Source of the DNA: an uncultured Myxococcales bacterium
GTDB lineage: Bacteria; Myxococcota_A; Polyangia; Polyangiales; Polyangiaceae
Direction of reading: 5' to 3'
NCBI GenBank assembly: GCA_937902985.1
Contig: CALFNG010000255.1
Location: 1-64,000 of the forward strand
DNA length: 64,000 bases
The position numbers and the translations under genes were made by a program. Of the stretch, positions 48,108-57,601 are shown one piece after another. Below the pieces are notes generated by a model, which did not search any database, had not been told where the DNA came from, and worked only from the letters and a program-made list of their open reading frames with translations. Within the stretch, counting starts at the first letter, position 1. Each line of letters begins with the position of its first letter.

Positions 48108-49132
48108 GAACGATCTTCGGACATGGTTGCCTCTGTCGCCCTGGTGCGATCGCCCTGGTCCTCACGTTGACCACGGCCCAGGCGTACGCGCAGGAGCCCC
48201 AAGCCTCCGCTGCGCCGACCAGCGAAGCGAGGGCTCACTTCGATCGGGGCGTGACCTTCTACGAAGAGACCGATTACTCGGCCGCTCTCGTCGAGTTCAA
48301 ACGAGCCTATACGCTCGCTCCGACGTGGCAGGTTCTCTTCAACATCGGCCAGTCGTACTTTCAGCTGAGAAACTATGCTCTTGCCCTGGTGACGCTCCGG
48401 CAGTTCATCGAACAGGGAGGGAATCGGATCCCGCCGGAGCGGCGAGCGCTCGTCGATACCGAGAGCATGGATCTCGCCAATCGGGTCGGGCACACACGCA
48501 TCCTGTCGAATCGAACGGGTGCCACCATCTCGGTCGATGAGGAAGTGGTGGGGGTGACCCCGGTGAAGGACCCTGTGCTCGTGAGCGTCGGGATACGCAA
48601 ATTGAAGGCTGTCTACCCCGGCACCCCGGCTGTCGAGGGGCCCGTCGAGGTCGAAGTGTCGGTGCCGGCCGGCGAGACGGTCGATGTTCGCCTCGACTTT
48701 CCGGATTCGCCCCCGCCCATGGCGGCCGAGCCTTCCGCGCGTCCCCGCGAGGTGCCCACGGCGGCCGCTTCCGAACAAGCCACGGTTGCGACACATAGCC
48801 GCGCTCCGGCCCTCGTATCGTTCGGGGTCGCAGTCGCTGCCACGGCGATAGGTGCCGTTTTCGGCGGCCTCACACTCCGCGACAAATCCCGCCTGGAAGG
48901 CGAGTGCGTCGGGAAAGCCTGCGTCGTCGGGTCTCGACCGGACATCGACGCGGTATCGCGAGACGGAGCCATCGCGACCGTCGGTTTCAGCGTCGCGGCG
49001 GTCGGCCTTGCCACGGGCGTCGTCTTCTGGCTCGCGGCGGGGGGTTCGGCCGCGCGCGACGGCGGCATCACGACCTCCCCCCCGGCCCCACGCACGAGCT
49101 TCGGTCCAGGGTTCGTCGCCGGCACGTTTTGA
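48104..49132 (+). CDS. Exported TPR/PEGA-like protein of the kinase operon
   Basis: 342 residues. Signal peptide ending AQAYAQE, TPR pair (RAHFDRGVTFYEETDYSAAL; QVLFNIGQSYFQLRNYALAL) at about 40-115, a PEGA-like beta segment (TRILSNRTGATISVDEEVVG; VSVGIRKLKAVYPG) at about 130-195, then two hydrophobic segments near 232-252 and 290-312. Same plan as the protein at 45325-46272, so the operon carries two such scaffolds flanking the kinase. ATG overlaps the kinase stop (ATGA). Confidence 0.87.
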   Translation: MRTIFGHGCLCRPGAIALVLTLTTAQAYAQEPQASAAPTSEARAHFDRGVTFYEETDYSAALVEFKRAYTLAPTWQVLFNIGQSYFQLRNYALALVTLRQFIEQGGNRIPPERRALVDTESMDLANRVGHTRILSNRTGATISVDEEVVGVTPVKDPVLVSVGIRKLKAVYPGTPAVEGPVEVEVSVPAGETVDVRLDFPDSPPPMAAEPSARPREVPTAAASEQATVATHSRAPALVSFGVAVAATAIGAVFGGLTLRDKSRLEGECVGKACVVGSRPDIDAVSRDGAIATVGFSVAAVGLATGVVFWLAAGGSAARDGGITTSPPAPRTSFGPGFVAGTF

Positions 49133-49142
49133 GAGACCCCGG

Positions 49143-50726
49143 ATGCTTCAACAGCGAGTGAGAGACGCATTGTGGGCGATCGGCGCGGGGACCGTGGTCA
49201 CGGCGTGGGGCTGCAACGCACTCACCGACTCGACGGGCTACTACGAAGTGAAACCCGCCGTCTTCGACTCTGGAACGGCCCTTTCAGACTCTGGAACGGC
49301 CCTTTCAGACTCTGGAACGGCCCTTCCCGACGCGACGTGCGTCGCGGGTACGGATCGCCGCACGCTCGAAGCTGCATGCACCGGCAGCTCTTGCGTGCCG
49401 TATGATGCCGTCCTCGCCGTTTGCGACGGCGGCTTTTGCCCGCTACCCACGCCGAGCCCGCAGCCCGTTGCGGACGCGAGCGCCGAATCCGGAGCCGCTC
49501 CCGACGGGGGAAGCGACGCCGCTCCAAATGATGGCGGCGTCGAGGGAGGTACCGGCTCCTGCAGTCAACTCCCCGGTGAGCCGAGCTCGGTCGTGTATGT
49601 GACGGGATCGACCGCGCTCGCATCATTCATCGGAGAAGTTTCCAGTGCCCTCGCTTCCAAGGTCACCATCGTCTATCAGCAGAGCGGCTCGTGCGTCGGG
49701 GTCCACTCGGCGCTCGATCCCGCAAACTACGCGCTCTCCTCCGCGAACGGGGTCGCGACGTATTACACCCCGAGCGGGGTCCAGAAGACCTGCGTTCTCG
49801 ACCCGAGCGAGAGGCTCGTCGCCGACGTCGGCGCCTCGGACGTCTTTTACTCCACATGTTACCAGGGCCAGGCGGTGACGCCGACTCTCCCGGCGTCGGT
49901 GGGAGAGAACTTCGGGCCCGTGCAGATCATGAATTTCGCCGTACCCCAGTCATCCACGCAGCAGAGCATCAGCCTCGCCGCGGCGTATTACGTCTTCGGC
50001 TTCGGCGGCAGCCCCTACCGGGTGCCGCCGTGGACGGACCCGATGCAGCTTCAGATTCGCAGTGCGAACTCGGGAACCCAGTCGCTCATCGCGGCCGCCA
50101 TCGGCGTGCCACCGAGCGCGTGGTTCGGAGTGAGTCATGGAACGAGCGCCCAGGTCGGCGCGGCGCTCGGCGCGGCGGGCCAGAGCGGCAGCCAGACGGT
50201 CGTCGATTCGGCGCTCGGTATCCTGGCATCGGACTATCTCCTCCAGAACGCGCAGGTGCTTCGCGGGCTCGCGGTCCGAGACGAAGGCGCGAGCTGCGCC
50301 TTCTACCCGAACACGACCGCGTTCGCCCGGGACAACGCCAACGCTCGGGACGGCCACTACCCCCTCTGGGGCCCGTCTCACTTCTACGCGCGCACCGACC
50401 CGGCCACGGGGCTCCCGCTCAAACCGGGGGTCTCCCAGTTCATCGATAGCCTCAACGGACTGACTCCCCTGCCCGGCCTCGACCTCGTGGCCGAATACGC
50501 CGCGAAAGGTCTCGTTCCACAGTGCGCCATGCACGTGACCCGCTCCAACGACGGCGGCGACTACACGCCCTTCAAGGCGGCGGCTGCGTGCAACTGCTAT
50601 TTCGACCTGCACGCCACGGGCTCGACCTCGTGCAAACCGTGCCAGGCGAACTCCGATTGCCCGAGCCGTGCTCCCAACTGCAACAAGTTCGGCCCGCAGC
50701 CGCAGCAGGGCTACTGCGACCTTTGA
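49143..50726 (+). CDS. PBP-like (PstS-type fold) cysteine-containing lipoprotein
   Basis: 527 residues. Signal with a lipobox-like TAWGC (about residue 24), then a repeat tether and an acidic/Gly spacer, and from about residue 150 a type II periplasmic-binding-protein-like domain: VVYVTGSTALASFIGEVSSA, TIVYQQSGSCVGVHSAL, VGASDVFYSTCYQGQAV, IMNFAVPQSSTQQSISLAAA. That is the order seen in PstS-like and related substrate-binding folds. No transporter subunits are nearby, so it may be a surface binding or sensor protein serving the kinase operon. The end is Cys-rich (CKPCQANSDCPSRAPNCNKF). ATG at 49143, 10 bases after the previous gene. Confidence 0.8.
   Translation: MLQQRVRDALWAIGAGTVVTAWGCNALTDSTGYYEVKPAVFDSGTALSDSGTALSDSGTALPDATCVAGTDRRTLEAACTGSSCVPYDAVLAVCDGGFCPLPTPSPQPVADASAESGAAPDGGSDAAPNDGGVEGGTGSCSQLPGEPSSVVYVTGSTALASFIGEVSSALASKVTIVYQQSGSCVGVHSALDPANYALSSANGVATYYTPSGVQKTCVLDPSERLVADVGASDVFYSTCYQGQAVTPTLPASVGENFGPVQIMNFAVPQSSTQQSISLAAAYYVFGFGGSPYRVPPWTDPMQLQIRSANSGTQSLIAAAIGVPPSAWFGVSHGTSAQVGAALGAAGQSGSQTVVDSALGILASDYLLQNAQVLRGLAVRDEGASCAFYPNTTAFARDNANARDGHYPLWGPSHFYARTDPATGLPLKPGVSQFIDSLNGLTPLPGLDLVAEYAAKGLVPQCAMHVTRSNDGGDYTPFKAAAACNCYFDLHATGSTSCKPCQANSDCPSRAPNCNKFGPQPQQGYCDL
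49266..49328 (+). repeat. 21-bp tandem repeat (SGTALSD x3) in the PBP-like lipoprotein
   Basis: Three copies of GACTCTGGAACGGCCCTTTCA, essentially identical at DNA level, encode D-SGTALS repeats just after the lipobox. Identity at silent positions points to recent expansion. Confidence 0.85.
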
Positions 50727-50736
50727 CGCGACCTGA

Positions 50737-51285
50737 TCAGCATGAGCCCGAGGGCGGCTTGCTGCCCGCCGCGCCGCGGGCCGGGCGGCGCGCGCCGCGG
50801 AGCCATAGCAAGGCGACGGAACCAAGGATCCCGAGCCACCCGAGCCCGCCTCGCCTCTCCCCGCCCCGGTCCGCGGAGAGGGAGCACCCGAAGCTCGGTT
50901 GAGGGAGGGCAGTGGTTGGATTCGAATGGTCGTCGTTTGGATTGATGCCCATCCGGATGTCGTCGATCGCGTGCGGATCGATCATTTCCACGGCATCCAG
51001 CGCCGGCCCCACCGTCGAGGGTCGGGTGCCGATCGCGCCCTGTTGACGGAGCTCCGCGCCGAATGCGTTGTTCGTCATGAAGCCGCCCTGCTCGGTCGTG
51101 TGGCACAGGAGACAGCCGTGAGGCGGCGCGACGGCGTTTTCGATCGTCGCCGAGCCACTCAGCTTCAAATGCTGGTCGACCTCTGCCGGGAACGTGGAAC
51201 TTCCAGCTGCGCCAAGGCTCCACCCGGTCAACGCGGTCAGACAGAGAAGCGCGAGGGATCGCCTGAGGCGGGCCTGGGTACTCAT
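50737..51285 (-). CDS. CxxCH protein with MYXO-CTERM-like tail
   Basis: 182 residues. N-terminal signal (RRSLALLCLTALTGWSLGAA), a single haem c-type motif PPHGCLLCHTTEQGG near residue 60, and a C-terminal sorting tail with SFGCSLSADRGGERRGGLGW, a hydrophobic helix (LGILGSVALLWL) and RGARRPARG. The Gly-Cys followed by helix and Arg cluster matches the MYXO-CTERM domain (TIGR03901-type), which directs surface anchoring in myxobacteria. GAGAGG is upstream of the ATG. Last gene of the yceI operon, 8 bases after the barrel gene. Probably a cell-surface monohaem cytochrome-like protein. Confidence 0.85.
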   Translation of the reverse strand: MSTQARLRRSLALLCLTALTGWSLGAAGSSTFPAEVDQHLKLSGSATIENAVAPPHGCLLCHTTEQGGFMTNNAFGAELRQQGAIGTRPSTVGPALDAVEMIDPHAIDDIRMGINPNDDHSNPTTALPQPSFGCSLSADRGGERRGGLGWLGILGSVALLWLRGARRPARGAAGSKPPSGSC

Positions 51286-51293
51286 GACACCTC

Positions 51294-52502
51294 TCAAAGA
51301 AAAACGTGGAACTGGGCCAACCACGTCGTGACGCCCGTGTTGGCCGGCGCTCCGGCGGCCCCGATGCTGCTGTAGATGCCGTCGAACCGCAGGTCCATGT
51401 GCGGCAAGAAGAACCACACCGCCGAGAGCCAACCGTCGAACGACGCTGGCTCTTGCGCCGCGCCGCCGTTCAACACCTCGCCCGTCAGCATGACGTGAAA
51501 ACCCTGGGCCGGCTCGTAGTCGGCCTGGGCGAACGCGGCGTACCCGCCGCGGTGGCCGTTCCACGTCAGCGATTGGTAGACGCTATCGGCCTCCGCCAGG
51601 AGAACGAGGGGTTGGACCGGCGCATAGCGAACGAACACCCCGTTCGCGTACCGATAGTCGGTCACGCCATATTGAATGTCGCGCGTCGCCCTGGTGAACG
51701 AGCTGCTGGCTCCGACCGCCAGCGTCGTCGCCGGCGCGTACTCGACATAAGCGCTGTAGCCACGCTCGCGAAAGTCGTCGGGGCGCATCTGAAAATTTCC
51801 GGCGATGCCCATCGCCTCGGCCCGGACCTTGTCTTGACTGAACGCGAGCGCCACCCCGTACTGCTGCGTTGCGTCGAAATCCGTTCGCGTGAGCGTTCGC
51901 GCCCAGAGCGTGTGCTCGATCATCCGGATGCCGAAAGGCAACGCGAGCTTGCCAGCGCGGAGGAGCCATGCGCCGTCTTCGTCGAGCTCCGCGCCCAGCC
52001 AGTGCTCCCTCGAGATCAAGTTCTTGGTGCTGGCGCGCGTCAGCGACACGGGAAGATCCCCCTCGGGGGCGTAGCCGATGTTCCCCGCGGCGCGAAACCT
52101 GCCGAGCTTGATGTCCGCCGTCAGGTCCGCGCGCATCGTGATGAATTGCTGCTGAACCGGGCTGCTTTCGACCTGGTTGCTGAGAAAGGCCTCTCGAAAG
52201 TCGCCACCCAGCCGGACCTGTTCGGGAAGCGGCACGAGACCCGCCAGGAAGCCAGACGTCTTGTCGGCCTCGCCCGACTCCGACGTTTGCCCGTAGCGCA
52301 TGCGCAGGAGAAGGTCGCTCTGAGCCCGCCCGTATTCGGTGAGGACGCCCGCACCCCCCGAGGGATCCGTGTGGCATGGCGTACACCCCGTGTACCCGTG
52401 ACGGATCATCCAGGGATAGGCGCGCGCGCTGGACGACGCCGTGACGAGCGCCGCCCAGAGCGCGACGCCCACGACCCAGCAGAATAGACGGCGCGCCGCC
52501 AT
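51294..52502 (-). CDS. CxxCH-bearing outer-membrane beta-barrel protein
   Basis: 402 residues. Signal peptide ending ARAYPW, then HGYTGCTPCHTDPSGGAGVL with one CxxCH haem motif near residue 40, followed by about 330 residues of alternating amphipathic strands (LRLGGD..., ADLTADIKLGRFRAAGNIGY, YSAYVEYAPATTLAVGAS) ending in the C-terminal Leu/Phe (FHVFL) usual for barrels. So a haem-motif plug fused to a porin-like barrel is likely. Second gene of an operon with yceI 38 bases upstream. An electron-conduit role is inference. Confidence 0.82.
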   Translation of the reverse strand: MAARRLFCWVVGVALWAALVTASSSARAYPWMIRHGYTGCTPCHTDPSGGAGVLTEYGRAQSDLLLRMRYGQTSESGEADKTSGFLAGLVPLPEQVRLGGDFREAFLSNQVESSPVQQQFITMRADLTADIKLGRFRAAGNIGYAPEGDLPVSLTRASTKNLISREHWLGAELDEDGAWLLRAGKLALPFGIRMIEHTLWARTLTRTDFDATQQYGVALAFSQDKVRAEAMGIAGNFQMRPDDFRERGYSAYVEYAPATTLAVGASSSFTRATRDIQYGVTDYRYANGVFVRYAPVQPLVLLAEADSVYQSLTWNGHRGGYAAFAQADYEPAQGFHVMLTGEVLNGGAAQEPASFDGWLSAVWFFLPHMDLRFDGIYSSIGAAGAPANTGVTTWLAQFHVFL

Positions 52503-52540
52503 CGACGTTCAACTCGAAACCGTGGGCGGCGCCCGGTTTC

Positions 52541-53095
52541 TCAGCTGCCCGCCACGTGAAAGCTGGCGCTCACGTCGACCTCAGGCTTCACCGTCACACC
52601 GAGGTAGACCGGCACCGTGATCCCGAAGTCGTTCATGTTGACGTGAAAGCTGCCGTGAACCGCGGATGTTGCGCCTTCGCCCTTGGCGTCGTAGTGCACC
52701 GTGACCGGACGCGTCTGCCCGTGGAGCTGCAAGCTGCCAGCGACATCCGCAGCGGCCTGCTCGCCGGGTTGAGGATACTTCAACGCGCTCCGAGCGATCG
52801 TCAGGATGGCCGCGGGGTATTTTTGCACTTCGAGGTACTTCTCTTTCATATGGTGATCACGCAGCCCGATGCCCGTACTGAGATTCGCCAGGGGCACGGT
52901 GACGACCACGCTCTTCCCGTCGTCGGACATGGTCAGATCGGCGGTGGTCCCGTCGATCTTCATACCCGCCGGTCCGGCGGCCTCGAACGAGACGCGTGCG
53001 TCAGTCGTCGCGGACAAGGCCGCGTGACCCACCGCACTGAGAGTCCCGAGGCTCGCTACCAGAGCTAAGATCCAAAGGCCCTTGCGTCGTTGCAT
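52541..53095 (-). CDS. YceI-like periplasmic lipocalin-fold protein
   Basis: 184 residues, with signal peptide (LWILALVASLGTLSAVGHAA) and a YceI domain: FEAAGPAGMKIDGTTADLTM, GLRDHHMKEKYLEVQKYPAA (the HM..KYL.V.KYP signature), and SFHVNMNDFGITVPVYLGVT. YceI proteins bind isoprenoid-type lipids in the periplasm; they often accompany cytochrome b561 or c-type genes. GGAGGTGAG precedes the ATG. First gene of the three-gene operon; the regulator gene ends 111 bases upstream on the same strand. Confidence 0.94.
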   Translation of the reverse strand: MQRRKGLWILALVASLGTLSAVGHAALSATTDARVSFEAAGPAGMKIDGTTADLTMSDDGKSVVVTVPLANLSTGIGLRDHHMKEKYLEVQKYPAAILTIARSALKYPQPGEQAAADVAGSLQLHGQTRPVTVHYDAKGEGATSAVHGSFHVNMNDFGITVPVYLGVTVKPEVDVSASFHVAGS

Positions 53096-53206: not shown

Positions 53207-54325
53207 TCAGAGCCCGTATCTCTTGAGCTTCTCGTAGAGGGTCGAGACGGCGATCCCCAAAGCACGGGCGGCGTTCATCTTGTTGCCGTCCGTCTGGGCC
53301 ATCGTTTGACGGATGGCAACCCGCTCTATTCGCTCGAGCGCCTGGCCGCCCAGCGGAAGGCCCTCGAGCCACGACTCTTCGTCGTTGGCCGGCCGAAGGA
53401 GCTTGAGATGGTGCGGCTCGAGGGCGTTCGTGCCCGGGTCGACGAAGGCCACCGCGCATGCGAGCACGTTCTTGAGCTCACGGACATTTCCAGGCCAGGG
53501 GTGGGCTTTGAGCGCGGCGTGAGTCGCGTCATTCACCTGGAGATCCTTGCGCCCGAGGTCATTCAACAGGCCCCGAACCAGTTCCGGCAGGTCGTCGAGA
53601 CGTTCGCGGAGAGGCGGGACCGAGATGACCGCCACCGCGAGCCGGAAGAAGAGATCCTCGCGGAACTTGCCGGCCGAGACATCGGCCCGGAGATCGCGGT
53701 TGGAGGCAGCCACCACGCGAACGTCGATGTGACGTTCGGTCTTGCCGCCGACCCGTCGGACCTTGCGGCTCTCGAGAGCTCGAAGGAGCCGCGGCTGCAA
53801 GTCGAGCGGGAGCTCCCCCACCTCGTCGAGGAAGAGCGTTCCCCCGTGCGCCCGCTCGAAGGCGCCCGCGTGAGCGGAGACCGCGCCGGTGAAGGCCCCA
53901 CGCTCGTGGCCGAGAAGCTCGCTCTCGGCCAGGTTGGCCGCCACCGCTCCGCAGTCGAACACGACGAACGGACCGTCGGCCCGCGCGCTCTGCTCGTGCA
54001 AGACGTGGGCGATGACGTCCTTGCCGGCGCCTGTCTCGCCGAAGAAGGCGACGGTGACGTCGGTCTGCGCGAACCTCTGGAGCATGTCCATCACCTCCAG
54101 CATGGGACGTGATCGAGCCCGCAGGTGGCCAAAACTCCGGATCGGTTCAAGGGGACGCTTGCGGAGGCTGGGCGCGGGCGCTTGCAGCCTGGGTGGGGCC
54201 CAGCTTCCGCGATTTGTTGCCTGCTCACACGTGGCCGTCTCCCCTCCCCTGGCCTCCTTTGAGACCACGCCAACCTGGATCGTCCGGCTTGGACGCTCCC
54301 CCTCGGCCGTGTTCGCGAGCTCCAT
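53207..54325 (-). CDS. Stand-alone sigma-54-dependent activator (no receiver domain)
   Basis: 372 residues. N-terminal ~60 residues have no known sensor domain. AAA+ module: Walker A-like [34 protein letters not shown] (sigma-54 contact GAFTGA), Walker [27 protein letters not shown]. Fis-type HTH at the end: [20 protein letters not shown]. So it should activate sigma-54 promoters without a phosphorylation input, probably by ligand or partner protein. It is upstream of, and on the same strand as, the yceI operon, which is the nearest candidate target. It is divergent from the histidine-kinase operon across a 679-base gap. Confidence 0.93.
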
Positions 54326-54687
54326 GGTTCGACTCCCGTCGTAAGGCTCGCGCTCTCGCGCGAGGTCGAGGTGAAATGACTTCTACTCACTCGCGCTTAG
54401 GCGCCGTGCTACGTCTCGGAAACATCGCGGCGGTGTTCCGCGGCGTTGCGTTCGCGGTCCAACGTGAAGGGTCTGCCGAACGCTACTCTCGCCGAGCGCT
54501 CGGTCGTCATGTCCGGAATGGAGAGTTGGCGAGCAGCGCGCTCCGCGCCCGCTGCGGTCTCCCGGGTGAGTGTCCCGTCTCCAAGGCCCGTCACGCTTGT
54601 ACTCGGAGATGCAGCCGAGCTCTGTGAATCTTGCGCCACGAACTTCGGCCGTTTCGAGCGCGATATCGTCACCGTCTTCACCGGTCC

Positions 54688-54730
54688 GTCACCGAAAACC
54701 GGAATCGACCTCCGAAAACCGGACGGTGAC
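54688..54730. promoter_or_regulatory. Repeated CCGAAAACCGGA boxes inside an inverted repeat
   Basis: CCGAAAACCGGA occurs twice, start-to-start spacing 20 bp (54692 and 54712), so both lie on one face of the helix. The pair is bracketed by GTCACCG and its inverse CGGTGAC. Good candidate for an upstream activator site; the binding protein is unknown. Confidence 0.5.
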
Positions 54731-54962
54731 TCCCGCGGCGAGGCGGGTGGTTGGCGACGGCCGGCGTACGCCCTTCTCTCCATCGTCGGCGTCCGGGAGT
54801 CGCGAAGATGGCGACGCGAGTCGATCGCCGGCGGCGATGAACGTCCTGCCCGACGGGTCACGCCAGGTTTGCGATCTCTCTACACAGTCGATGCATACGC
54901 CGGCGCCAGCAAGTGGTAGGGCTGCGTGCGGAGGGGGGCTTTCGCACGAGCCTGATCCGTCG

Positions 54963-54979
54963 GCTCGTTCGAAACGAGC
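54963..54979 (+). promoter_or_regulatory. Hairpin just upstream of the histidine-kinase RBS
   Basis: GCTCGTT-CGA-AACGAGC (perfect 7-bp stem) followed by TATTTTC and then the AAGGAGG ribosome-binding site. It could be a leader attenuator or an operator. The short T-run makes a weak terminator possible. Confidence 0.4.
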
Positions 54980-55004
54980 TATTTTCACCAAGGAGGAGCC
55001 CGCG

Positions 55005-56276
55005 ATGCTTGTTGAAGCTCACGATGGGCAAACGGGATTGCGTCTGATTCCGCGATGGGCGTCGGGGATGGCTCGGCCCTGCCTTTTGCGTCACTTGGCC
55101 ATTTGTATCGCCACGATTTGCGCGTGGGCGATGCGTCGCGAGCTTTACGTCACGGGCGGCCTTCTGTGGGTGCTGGGGCTGGCCGCGATCGTGAACGCGG
55201 CGGCGGCCAGACTACCCGACATCCCGAAAGGGGTAGGACGTTTCCTTTCGCCTTCTGTCGGGCTGATGACCTGGGCAGCGCTGGTCTTTCTCACCGGCGG
55301 CGTCAGCTCTCCGATGGTGGCCGGCTTATGGCTCGAGATCGTGTTCGCCGCGATGGTCTTTCCGCCGCCTGCCACGCTTCTCACGACCGCAGCCGCGATC
55401 GGCGTGCTCTCCGCCGATCAGTGCGCGCTCGGCCTGGGGTCGACCCTCGGTCGTCTCGGCCTCCAAGCTGGCTTCCTGCTGTCCTTCGGACTCGTAGCCT
55501 TCTCCGCCAAACGGCGCTGGAGGCAGGAGCACCAGGCGCTCTCGATCGAGGCGACGGCGCTGGGAAGCCGCCTGATTGATCTCGAACGCGAGCTCGAAGC
55601 GGCTCGGGTACTGGGCCGGGTGGGGGAACGGGTGGCGCGGCTCGCGCACAGCCTGAAGAACGCCGTCCACAGCCTTCGCGGTTTCGTCAAGCTCATGGAG
55701 GTTCCCGCGAATGGCGACCGCGCACAAGCGCAAGCACAGGTGATCGCCGGGCTGCAGCTCGCCATCGATCGACTCGAACAGACCGCTCGCGAGGTCTTGC
55801 GCCCCAGCGAGGGGCAGAGCCAATCCGACGGGCCGACGACGGCCGCCGAGCTCTCTCGCACGCTCGATGAAGTCGTCGCCGAGATGAGGCGAATTCACTC
55901 CGGTGTACACTGGATCAAGGCGCCGCTGGACAATCTTCGTAGCGTGGCGCTGCCCGCGTTGCGCTTGCGCGAAGTTCTGCTGATCTTGGCGCAAAATGCC
56001 GCTGAAGCGTGCGGCGCGTCCGGCGAGGTCATCGTGCGGGCGCACGTGGTCGGCGATCTTCTTCACCTGGTCGTTCAGGATCGGGGGCCAGGCTTCGACC
56101 CGCTCTTACGGGACGCGATCTTTCAACCAGGGATCACGAGCAAGCCGACCGGAAATGGCTTTGGTCTCTTCCTGGCCCGCCGTCTCGTCGAAGCAGGAGG
56201 CGGCCGCCTGACGATCCACCCGGCAGGTCATGGCGGAGCGCTCGTTTCAGTCCGCCTACCGGTCTTGTCAAGCTAG
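55005..56276 (+). CDS. Membrane histidine kinase
   Basis: 423 residues. About five hydrophobic segments in the first 165 residues (ICIATICAWAM, GGLLWVLGLAAIVNAAAARL, VGLMTWAALVFLTGGV, LEIVFAAMVFPPPATLLTTA) form a membrane sensor with almost no periplasmic loop. A coiled coil (EATALGSRLIDLERELEAA) leads to an H-box VARLAHSLKNAVHSLRGFVK with phospho-acceptor His (near 214), then N-box LLILAQNAAEACG and G-boxes QDRGPGFDP and GNGFGLFLARRLVEAGGG. The start follows AAGGAGG. Operon with the response regulator (8-base gap). The intramembrane sensor suggests it detects envelope state. Confidence 0.92.
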   Translation: MLVEAHDGQTGLRLIPRWASGMARPCLLRHLAICIATICAWAMRRELYVTGGLLWVLGLAAIVNAAAARLPDIPKGVGRFLSPSVGLMTWAALVFLTGGVSSPMVAGLWLEIVFAAMVFPPPATLLTTAAAIGVLSADQCALGLGSTLGRLGLQAGFLLSFGLVAFSAKRRWRQEHQALSIEATALGSRLIDLERELEAARVLGRVGERVARLAHSLKNAVHSLRGFVKLMEVPANGDRAQAQAQVIAGLQLAIDRLEQTAREVLRPSEGQSQSDGPTTAAELSRTLDEVVAEMRRIHSGVHWIKAPLDNLRSVALPALRLREVLLILAQNAAEACGASGEVIVRAHVVGDLLHLVVQDRGPGFDPLLRDAIFQPGITSKPTGNGFGLFLARRLVEAGGGRLTIHPAGHGGALVSVRLPVLSS

Positions 56277-56284
56277 GGCGGACG

Positions 56285-57601
56285 ATGCCTGGAGAGCGGC
56301 TGCTGGTGGTCGACGACGATCCTGGCTCGTTGAGCTACATGTCCCTTGCGCTGGAGCAGGCGGGGTACTCCGTCCGCCGCGCCACCGACGGCTTGTCGGC
56401 GCTGGTCGCCATCGAAGGCGAACCACCGGCCCTGGTCGTCTCGGACCTCCAGATGCCCGGCATGAACGGTCTCGACCTGCTCGAAAGCATCAAGCAGCGT
56501 TGGCCGCAGGTGCTCGTCATCGTCACCACCGTGGAGGAGGAGGTCGCGACGATCGTGGAGGTCGTTCAACGCGGGGCCATGAACTACCTGGTGAAACCGG
56601 TCTCTCCCGCGGTGTTGCGCTCTGCGGCGGCGAAGGCCCTGGCGCATGGCGCGACGCGAACCCCTGCGCCGCTCGATGCATGCGTGCCCGAGATGGTCGG
56701 CGTGAGCCCGGCCATCGTTCGCGTGAGGCAAGCAGTGGCCCTCGCCTCTCGGAGCGATGTCAACGTCATCGTCGTCGGTGAGACGGGGACGGGCAAGGAG
56801 CTCGCAGCCCGGGCACTTCATCGGCTCTCCAGTCTCGCCGGCGGGCCCTTCATCCCGCACAACTGCGCGGTGACCCCTCCGGAGATGTTCGACAGCGAAT
56901 TCTTCGGTCACAGGCGCGGGGCATTCACCGGCGCCGACAGGGACCGAGCCGGGATCCTGCGCGAAGCTCACGGGGGGGTGCTCTTCCTCGATGAGCTGGA
57001 ATGCCTCGGGCTGGCCAACCAGGCCAAGCTGCTGCGCGTGCTCGATGACGGCGAGATCCGTCCTGTAGGCTCGGAGACGTCGCGGCCAGTGTCCGTGCGC
57101 TTCGTTGCGGCGACCAACCGGCCTCCCCAGGCCATGCTCGCCAGCCGCGAACTGCGGGAGGACCTCTACTACCGGCTTCGCGGCTTTCAGATCGAGGTTC
57201 CGCCGCTCCGCGACCGGAGCGAAGACATCGTTCCCTTGACGGATCACATTCTCGGAGGGTCGAGGGCCGGGCTGACGGCTCGCGCCCGGGAGGCACTCCA
57301 GATCTGTCACTGGCCTGGAAACATCCGCCAGCTGCGCAACGTGCTGCGAAGCGCGAATACCGTCGCGGGGGGAGGCCCCATCGACATACGCCACCTGGAC
57401 CTCTCGGACTGTGGCCAGCCGGAGACGCCTCGTCTCTCGAGTACGCTCCCGAGCGGTCCCCTGTCTCCGAGGACGCTGCATGGCGTGGAACGACAGGCCA
57501 TCGAGCATGCGCTGCGAATGCACAACGGAAACCTGAGTCGGGCGGCCGAGGCGCTCGGTATCCACCGGTCGACGCTGCGGCGAAAGCTTCGCGAGCCCTA
57601 A
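56285..57601 (+). CDS. NtrC-family sigma-54 response regulator
   Basis: 438 residues. Receiver domain (1-115): acidic pair in LLVVDDDPGS, phospho-Asp in LVVSDLQMPGMNG (about residue 54), Lys in MNYLVKPVSP. AAA+ (about 140-360): VVGETGTGKELAAR, GAFTGADRDRAGILREAHGG, LFLDELECL, LREDLYYRLRGFQ. Fis HTH at the end: LSRAAEALGIHRSTLRRKLR. Cognate partner of the adjacent histidine kinase. Its stop overlaps by 3 bases the stop of the convergent Cys-rich membrane gene. Targets are not known; no clear -24/-12 element was found upstream of the Cys-rich genes. Confidence 0.95.
   Translation: MPGERLLVVDDDPGSLSYMSLALEQAGYSVRRATDGLSALVAIEGEPPALVVSDLQMPGMNGLDLLESIKQRWPQVLVIVTTVEEEVATIVEVVQRGAMNYLVKPVSPAVLRSAAAKALAHGATRTPAPLDACVPEMVGVSPAIVRVRQAVALASRSDVNVIVVGETGTGKELAARALHRLSSLAGGPFIPHNCAVTPPEMFDSEFFGHRRGAFTGADRDRAGILREAHGGVLFLDELECLGLANQAKLLRVLDDGEIRPVGSETSRPVSVRFVAATNRPPQAMLASRELREDLYYRLRGFQIEVPPLRDRSEDIVPLTDHILGGSRAGLTARAREALQICHWPGNIRQLRNVLRSANTVAGGGPIDIRHLDLSDCGQPETPRLSSTLPSGPLSPRTLHGVERQAIEHALRMHNGNLSRAAEALGIHRSTLRRKLREP

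Follow-up and report, generated by a model that had tools for sequence, protein, structure and literature searches.

Can an outer membrane be served by redox proteins that would carry one haem each? What is known of single-haem porins comes mainly from Cyc2, which serves as a marker for iron oxidation. The question is raised here by three neighbouring genes in a 64,000-nucleotide stretch of DNA from an uncultured Myxococcales bacterium (contig CALFNG010000255.1), referred to below as the window. They encode a YceI-family protein, a fused monohaem-type outer-membrane barrel and a small protein with one CxxCH motif, and the original prediction was that they form an electron or haem route across the outer membrane. 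No published account of this operon was found in a literature search of partial coverage.

The three genes and their neighbours

All three genes are on the minus strand. The yceI gene (53095-52541, 184 aa with a signal peptide) is separated by 38 bp (52503-52540) from the barrel gene (52502-51294, 402 aa), which is separated by 8 bp (51286-51293) from the small gene (51285-50737, 182 aa with a signal peptide and a MYXO-CTERM-like tail). The coordinates and both gaps are exactly those first claimed. The barrel protein ends in ...HVFL and the small protein starts with the ATG at 51285. Clear ribosome-binding sites precede yceI (GGAGGTGA) and the small gene (GAGGTG), and a sigma-70 and terminator scan was uninformative. 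The next gene on the 3' side of the small gene (48852-50726) is convergent and encodes a PBP-like protein; it contains an in-frame perfect 21-bp tandem repeat at 49266-49325 (2.9 copies) that is translated as a repeated ALSDSGT.

The gene order was looked for in other genomes. A first survey covered 58 genomes, among them that of the window itself, from the family and order to which it belongs, and the barrel gene was present in 26 of them; the small CxxCH gene lay directly after it in 27 of 29 loci, with a spacing of -26 to +14 bp. Barrel profile matches were found throughout the phylum. The second sample, 80 further loci from a named collection and almost all from MAGs, overlaps the first survey in that many loci come from the same genomes. 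Most of its record titles name myxobacteria or use the older name Deltaproteobacteria, and some give just a proteobacterium. After sequences at least 95% identical were removed, 55 non-redundant loci remained, mostly from Myxococcota. The small gene follows the barrel gene in 51 of these loci, YceI is upstream of the barrel in 38 and missing in 17, and the trio is complete in 36. Loss of CxxCH in orthologues, which would have spoken against the original prediction, was never seen: the motif is retained in all 84 non-redundant barrels and in all 79 non-redundant small proteins. A chance line-up of three genes is ruled out because the motifs are invariant and the gene order is conserved. Sequence comparison thus supports the assignment of yceI, the barrel gene and the small CxxCH gene to one conserved operon.

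Other genes are found near the operon in parts of the family. A gene with the WVDVGSGAGAPG motif, which we take to encode an RsmG-like methyltransferase, occurs in a subgroup of five loci (L040, L043, L045, L047 and L048) and lies upstream of the operon in four of them. Lipoprotein-like proteins of about 300 aa with three CxxCH motifs, ending in GDCNxCHTxxGxxAPGRI, are encoded near the operon in 17 of the 80 loci (L032, L033, L037, L010, L038 and L041 among them), and in several the gene sits between YceI and the barrel. The source genome has its own homologue on another contig (L183:1465-2787), which has no Pfam cytochrome match.

YceI proteins form a lipid- or quinone-binding, lipocalin-like family. 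The window protein matches Pfam PF04264 (E 1.5e-21; 77.7 bits, cut-off 23.7), has relatives in the PDB (7bwl, 1y0g and 5ixg) and is without CxxCH. It is taken to be a periplasmic lipid-binding protein. Any relay role is putative, as the protein has no CxxCH and roughly one locus in three lacks it.

A sigma-54 activator had also been noted immediately upstream. The gene is real (54325-53207, minus strand) and ends 111 bp before yceI. Its product, with AAA+ and Fis-type HTH domains, matches Pfam Sigma54_activat (2.6e-62) and HTH_8 and contains the GAFTGA motif, and it has no recognised N-terminal sensor domain. Its membership of the system is putative at most, and no homologue was found beside the operon at the relatives' loci. 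Upstream of yceI, no -24/-12 site with two or fewer mismatches was found on the correct strand; the best candidate has three mismatches and overlaps the ribosome-binding site. Sigma-54 control of the operon was rejected because there is no good -24/-12 site and relatives do not keep the activator next to the operon. The plus strand at 54570-57601 encodes a histidine kinase and a sigma-54 response regulator as a pair, which diverges from the activator gene (53207-54325).

The barrel protein and its relation to Cyc2

The barrel protein consists of a signal peptide (residues ~1-28), a CxxCH module (29-66), a linker and a 16-strand barrel (96-401). The haem-attachment motif, CTPCH at residues 40-44, is encoded at 52371-52385 on the minus strand. 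The window barrel has no Pfam, NCBIfam or PDB sequence match, and 12 of 29 barrel homologues give weak matches to Pfam Porin_O_P. An AlphaFold2 model built with the 29 homologues has 16 strands, a pLDDT of 85.0 and a pTM of 0.81; no haem was placed, and model confidence is lowest in the haem module, where the pLDDT is about 46-75. Foldseek searches with this model returned 16-strand porins, OmpT best (E 4.7e-13), along with VhChiP, PorB, Omp32, OprO and OprP. On the strength of the model, the barrel can be assigned with confidence as a 16-strand porin.

The search for cytochrome c maturation genes that had been proposed for the genome found CcmF, CcmC and CcsB-like genes. A conserved CXXCH motif and a maturation system, the combination that describes a monohaem cytochrome c, are thus present for both the barrel and the small protein, and both are predicted to carry covalent haem c. 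The redox half of the original route is partly supported, whereas no feature supports transport of haem. What points to uptake of haem or a metal through the barrel is just the presence of CxxCH and the earlier suggestion, and such a function is extremely improbable: the model is a 16-strand porin, with neither a 22-strand barrel of the TonB type nor a TonB plug, and CxxCH serves to attach haem covalently, not to release it.

Residues 187-213, between predicted strands 5 and 6 (51864-51944, minus strand), are highly conserved with the pattern PFGxRxxEH...R...Q, which includes the invariant His197, and judging by strand order they would lie where porins have their constriction loop L3. Met123, His197, His336 and several Arg residues are invariant among the 84 non-redundant barrels, and about ten Arg are near-invariant. 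The invariant residues are candidates for a distal haem ligand or for the lining of the pore. Could the haem act as a sensor or gate, in a nutrient or anion porin that is opened by the redox state of a haem plug with no net electron transport? The OprO/OprP-like barrel and its arginines, as in anion-selective porins, would suit such a function. It is nevertheless quite improbable given that a dedicated second CxxCH protein is retained in 51 of the 55 loci and that class-I cytochromes take the place of the small protein in related families.

Cyc2 is a monohaem cytochrome fused to a 16-strand porin and it oxidises Fe2+ (Keffer et al. 2021, PMC8406198). In a model of Cyc2 the haem sits at the periplasmic end of the barrel and solute enters the pore, and the barrel has been likened to the Porin_O_P family (PMC8406198). 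Cyc2 proteins are recognised by the motif AXPXFAR[Q/K][T/Y] upstream of CXXCH and by PXL four residues after CXXCH (PMC8406198). They also have a single N-terminal CXXCH after the signal peptide, a length of at least 365 aa and a 16-strand porin behind the cytochrome module. The window protein shares the single motif (residues 40-44 of 402; found in 84 of 84 barrels) and, in the AlphaFold2 model and its Foldseek matches, the porin. The AXPXFAR[Q/K][T/Y] motif is found in none of the 84 non-redundant barrels, even with R allowed at the Q/K site, and neither is PXL, in place of which there is DPSGG...LTxYGR. The window counterpart of the first motif is AYPWMIRHGYTGC, with A, P and R in common and equally spaced. 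Because both published motifs are absent, the barrel is a Cyc2-like variant and not Cyc2 by definition.

A more distant relationship was sought in sequence profiles. The proteobacterial comparison set consisted of six Cyc2-like proteins from plasmid records, retrieved with a motif-based query and not including a characterised Cyc2; five of the six fit a slightly relaxed AXPXFAR motif and all six a relaxed PXL. The profiles of the window barrels and of these six proteins align at the haem module. With signal peptides removed, the hhalign score of the modules is 31.4, against 17.3 +/- 2.9 for shuffled controls in which columns were permuted with CxxCH kept in place, and none of the 200 controls reached it. 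No profile similarity to the six proteins was found over the barrel part. The module of the small protein is similar to that of the barrel (0 of 200 shuffled controls reach the score) and to that of Cyc2 (2 of 200).

Other Myxococcota proteins lie between the two groups. Some carry the canonical Cyc2 motif, AIPAFARRYETSCQTCH...PKLTPFGEAF (L156-L167), and the window's own genome encodes a second fused CxxCH-barrel with the near-canonical motif AVPSFSRKYKTSCQTCHTVYPVLNAFGEAFRR (L173:3939-6719, G000:C98), beside which a divergent gene encodes a cytochrome with five CxxCH motifs. Intermediate fused CxxCH-barrels (L174-L181) have the pattern PRFAxxxGxxCxxCHxxPxGGG, for example AIPRFAARNGNECIQCHVSPSGGG. 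In hhalign comparisons, whose E-values are for single pairwise comparisons and not for database searches, the window family matches the intermediates with an E-value of 8e-40 over 362 columns, and the canonical-motif proteins of Myxococcota match the proteobacterial Cyc2-like proteins at 2.3e-19 over 296 columns. The window family matches the canonical-motif proteins of Myxococcota with a probability of 94.6 over 228 columns, half the barrel. The gene after three of the intermediate barrels encodes a class-I dihaem cytochrome c, and most of the plasmid Cyc2-like genes have an annotated c-type cytochrome gene behind them. In the window family this cytochrome slot is filled by a mono-CxxCH protein with a sorting tail.

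The haem module of the barrel thus resembles that of Cyc2, intermediate families join both, and the protein looks like a distant relative. A single-haem porin has a precedent that the original prediction overlooked: Cyc2 resembles it, and Myxococcota hold the linking families. The window family is a branch related to Cyc2 and probably works much as Cyc2 does. Could the barrel be a true equivalent of Cyc2 that oxidises dissolved Fe2+ for energy, with the small protein merely the next carrier? The same architecture of N-terminal monohaem module and 16-strand porin, the related module and the linking families would agree with this, as would the record titles of some homologues, which name groundwater, peat and permafrost MAGs, habitats with redox gradients. 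This is nonetheless unlikely: both published motifs are missing from every barrel, and the second protein of the same genome, with its near-canonical motif AVPSFSRKYKTSCQTCHTVYPVLN, is a better candidate for the Fe2+ job.

The small CxxCH protein and its sorting tail

The small protein carries its haem-attachment motif, CLLCH, at residues 58-62 (51100-51114, minus strand). The window copy has no Pfam, NCBIfam or PDB sequence match and no Pfam cytochrome match, and its model matched no solved fold. Five columns are fully invariant in an alignment of 25 members, the C, C and H of CxxCH and a Gly-Cys in the tail, and just these are again invariant among the 79 non-redundant proteins. This pattern is what haem attachment together with MYXO-CTERM processing would be expected to leave. 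The small protein is without a clear distal ligand, because no invariant Met or His was found beyond CxxCH in the 79 proteins. The NCBIfam model 'GEGP diheme' gives weak matches in 18 of the 25 proteins (best 1.4e-4); these are read as similarity around CxxCH, and membership was rejected. Most orthologues have a calcium-type motif, DSDGDG, which is lost in the window copy (50930-51100).

The tail of the window copy (50776-50889, minus strand) has the signature FGC with Gly133-Cys134, a transmembrane helix at 148-165 and an Arg-rich end. The NCBIfam MYXO-CTERM model TIGR03901 matches 9 of the 25 alignment members (best 3.3e-5) and does not match the window protein at E up to 1. The surface position first proposed for the CLLCH protein is in part upheld by the Gly-Cys in all 79 tails, and the window copy remains unmatched by TIGR03901. 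Judging by the MYXO-CTERM-like tail, the small protein is probably located at the cell surface. It has been reported that a MYXO-CTERM precursor resides in the inner membrane before sorting (PMC11980579). The small protein might face the periplasm, anchored either in the inner membrane through a C-terminal helix that is not cleaved or in the outer membrane's inner leaflet, and accept electrons from the barrel haem on the periplasmic side, a part that the class-I cytochromes next to related barrels appear to play. The ordinary c-type cytochrome encoded next to related fused barrels is also consistent with such a position. This is possible, if somewhat unlikely; the conserved Gly-Cys and the presence of other MYXO-CTERM proteins in the source genome favour sorting to the surface.

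A proposed electron route and known systems

With moderate confidence, we propose that the operon encodes a Cyc2-like outer-membrane redox porin and a dedicated second monohaem protein. The barrel protein would be exported and inserted as a 16-strand porin. By analogy with Cyc2 and given the invariance of CTPCH, Ccm enzymes would attach one haem c to the N-terminal module, which would form a plug at the periplasmic mouth of the barrel. Small soluble electron donors or acceptors may pass the conserved loop-3 constriction into the pore and give electrons to the barrel haem or take them from it; the haem in turn may pass electrons to or from periplasmic carriers. The CLLCH protein would carry a second haem c, be tethered to the outer membrane through its tail, probably on the cell surface, and dock at the barrel as a redox partner. 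At roughly two loci in three, YceI may act on the periplasmic side, which is the weakest step. The precedent of Cyc2 makes uptake of electrons, for example from Fe2+, slightly more probable than their export.

One haem per protein is probably unable to wire the whole membrane. The straight wire from periplasm to surface that was first envisaged is doubtful on this count and because models of Cyc2 place its haem at the periplasmic end of the barrel (PMC8406198). With just one haem, at the inner mouth, the membrane cannot be spanned; therefore either solute enters the pore, as proposed for Cyc2, or the small protein reaches in. The latter would give a two-haem relay, in which a lipid-anchored monohaem protein at the surface dips into the outer mouth of a porin plugged by haem on the inner side, with His197, His336 and Met123 providing a distal ligand or docking site. 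Such a relay is rather unlikely; if it existed, it would be a minimal electron conduit of an undescribed kind, used widely by Myxococcota. The Cyc2-like redox porin with its second monohaem protein, the reading preferred here, makes the operon a conserved and apparently uncharacterised variant among the fused cytochrome-porins. Searches built on the published Cyc2 motif would miss this motif-negative branch across mostly uncultured Myxococcota, and it brings its own partner, with a sorting tail suggestive of a place on the cell surface. Should it be redox active, it would be an overlooked way for Myxococcota to exchange electrons with their surroundings. The operon makes it testable how one haem per protein serves an outer membrane.

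How does the locus compare with known systems? Like MtrAB, PioAB and MtoAB, it would associate a redox protein with an outer-membrane barrel. However, those systems have 26-strand barrels around multihaem chains, and the window proteins have 16 strands and one CxxCH each, so they are not a multihaem porin-cytochrome conduit, in which a multihaem cytochrome lies inside a 26-strand barrel. The phosphate porins OprO and OprP (Pfam Porin_O_P) share the 16-strand porin fold (Foldseek TM about 0.58) but are without the N-terminal CxxCH module and are 10-11% identical. YceI resembles its family (1y0g, 5ixg, 7bwl) in the PF04264 match and signal peptide and differs in its linkage to a haem-porin. The small protein has the Cys signature, helix and Arg-rich end of TraA-type MYXO-CTERM proteins (myxosortase MrtX, PMC11980579), but its tail scores below TIGR03901, and cleavage, lipidation and display are predicted at most. 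Cyc2 (PMC8406198) is similar in its signal peptide, one N-terminal CxxCH module, predicted 16-strand porin and length of about 400 aa, and in the c-type cytochrome gene that comes next in related loci. In contrast to Cyc2, the window family has WM(I)RH for PxFAR[QK][TY] and DPSGG...LTxYGR for PXL, it is paired with a mono-CxxCH protein that ends in a MYXO-CTERM-type tail, and YceI is upstream; the iron oxidation of Cyc2 is not claimed here. Closest to home, the canonical-motif proteins (L156-L167) and the second fused protein of the window's own genome (L173) also join CxxCH to a barrel in the same phylum, but they carry PxFARRY...P.LTPFGEAFRR and form a branch separate from the window family.
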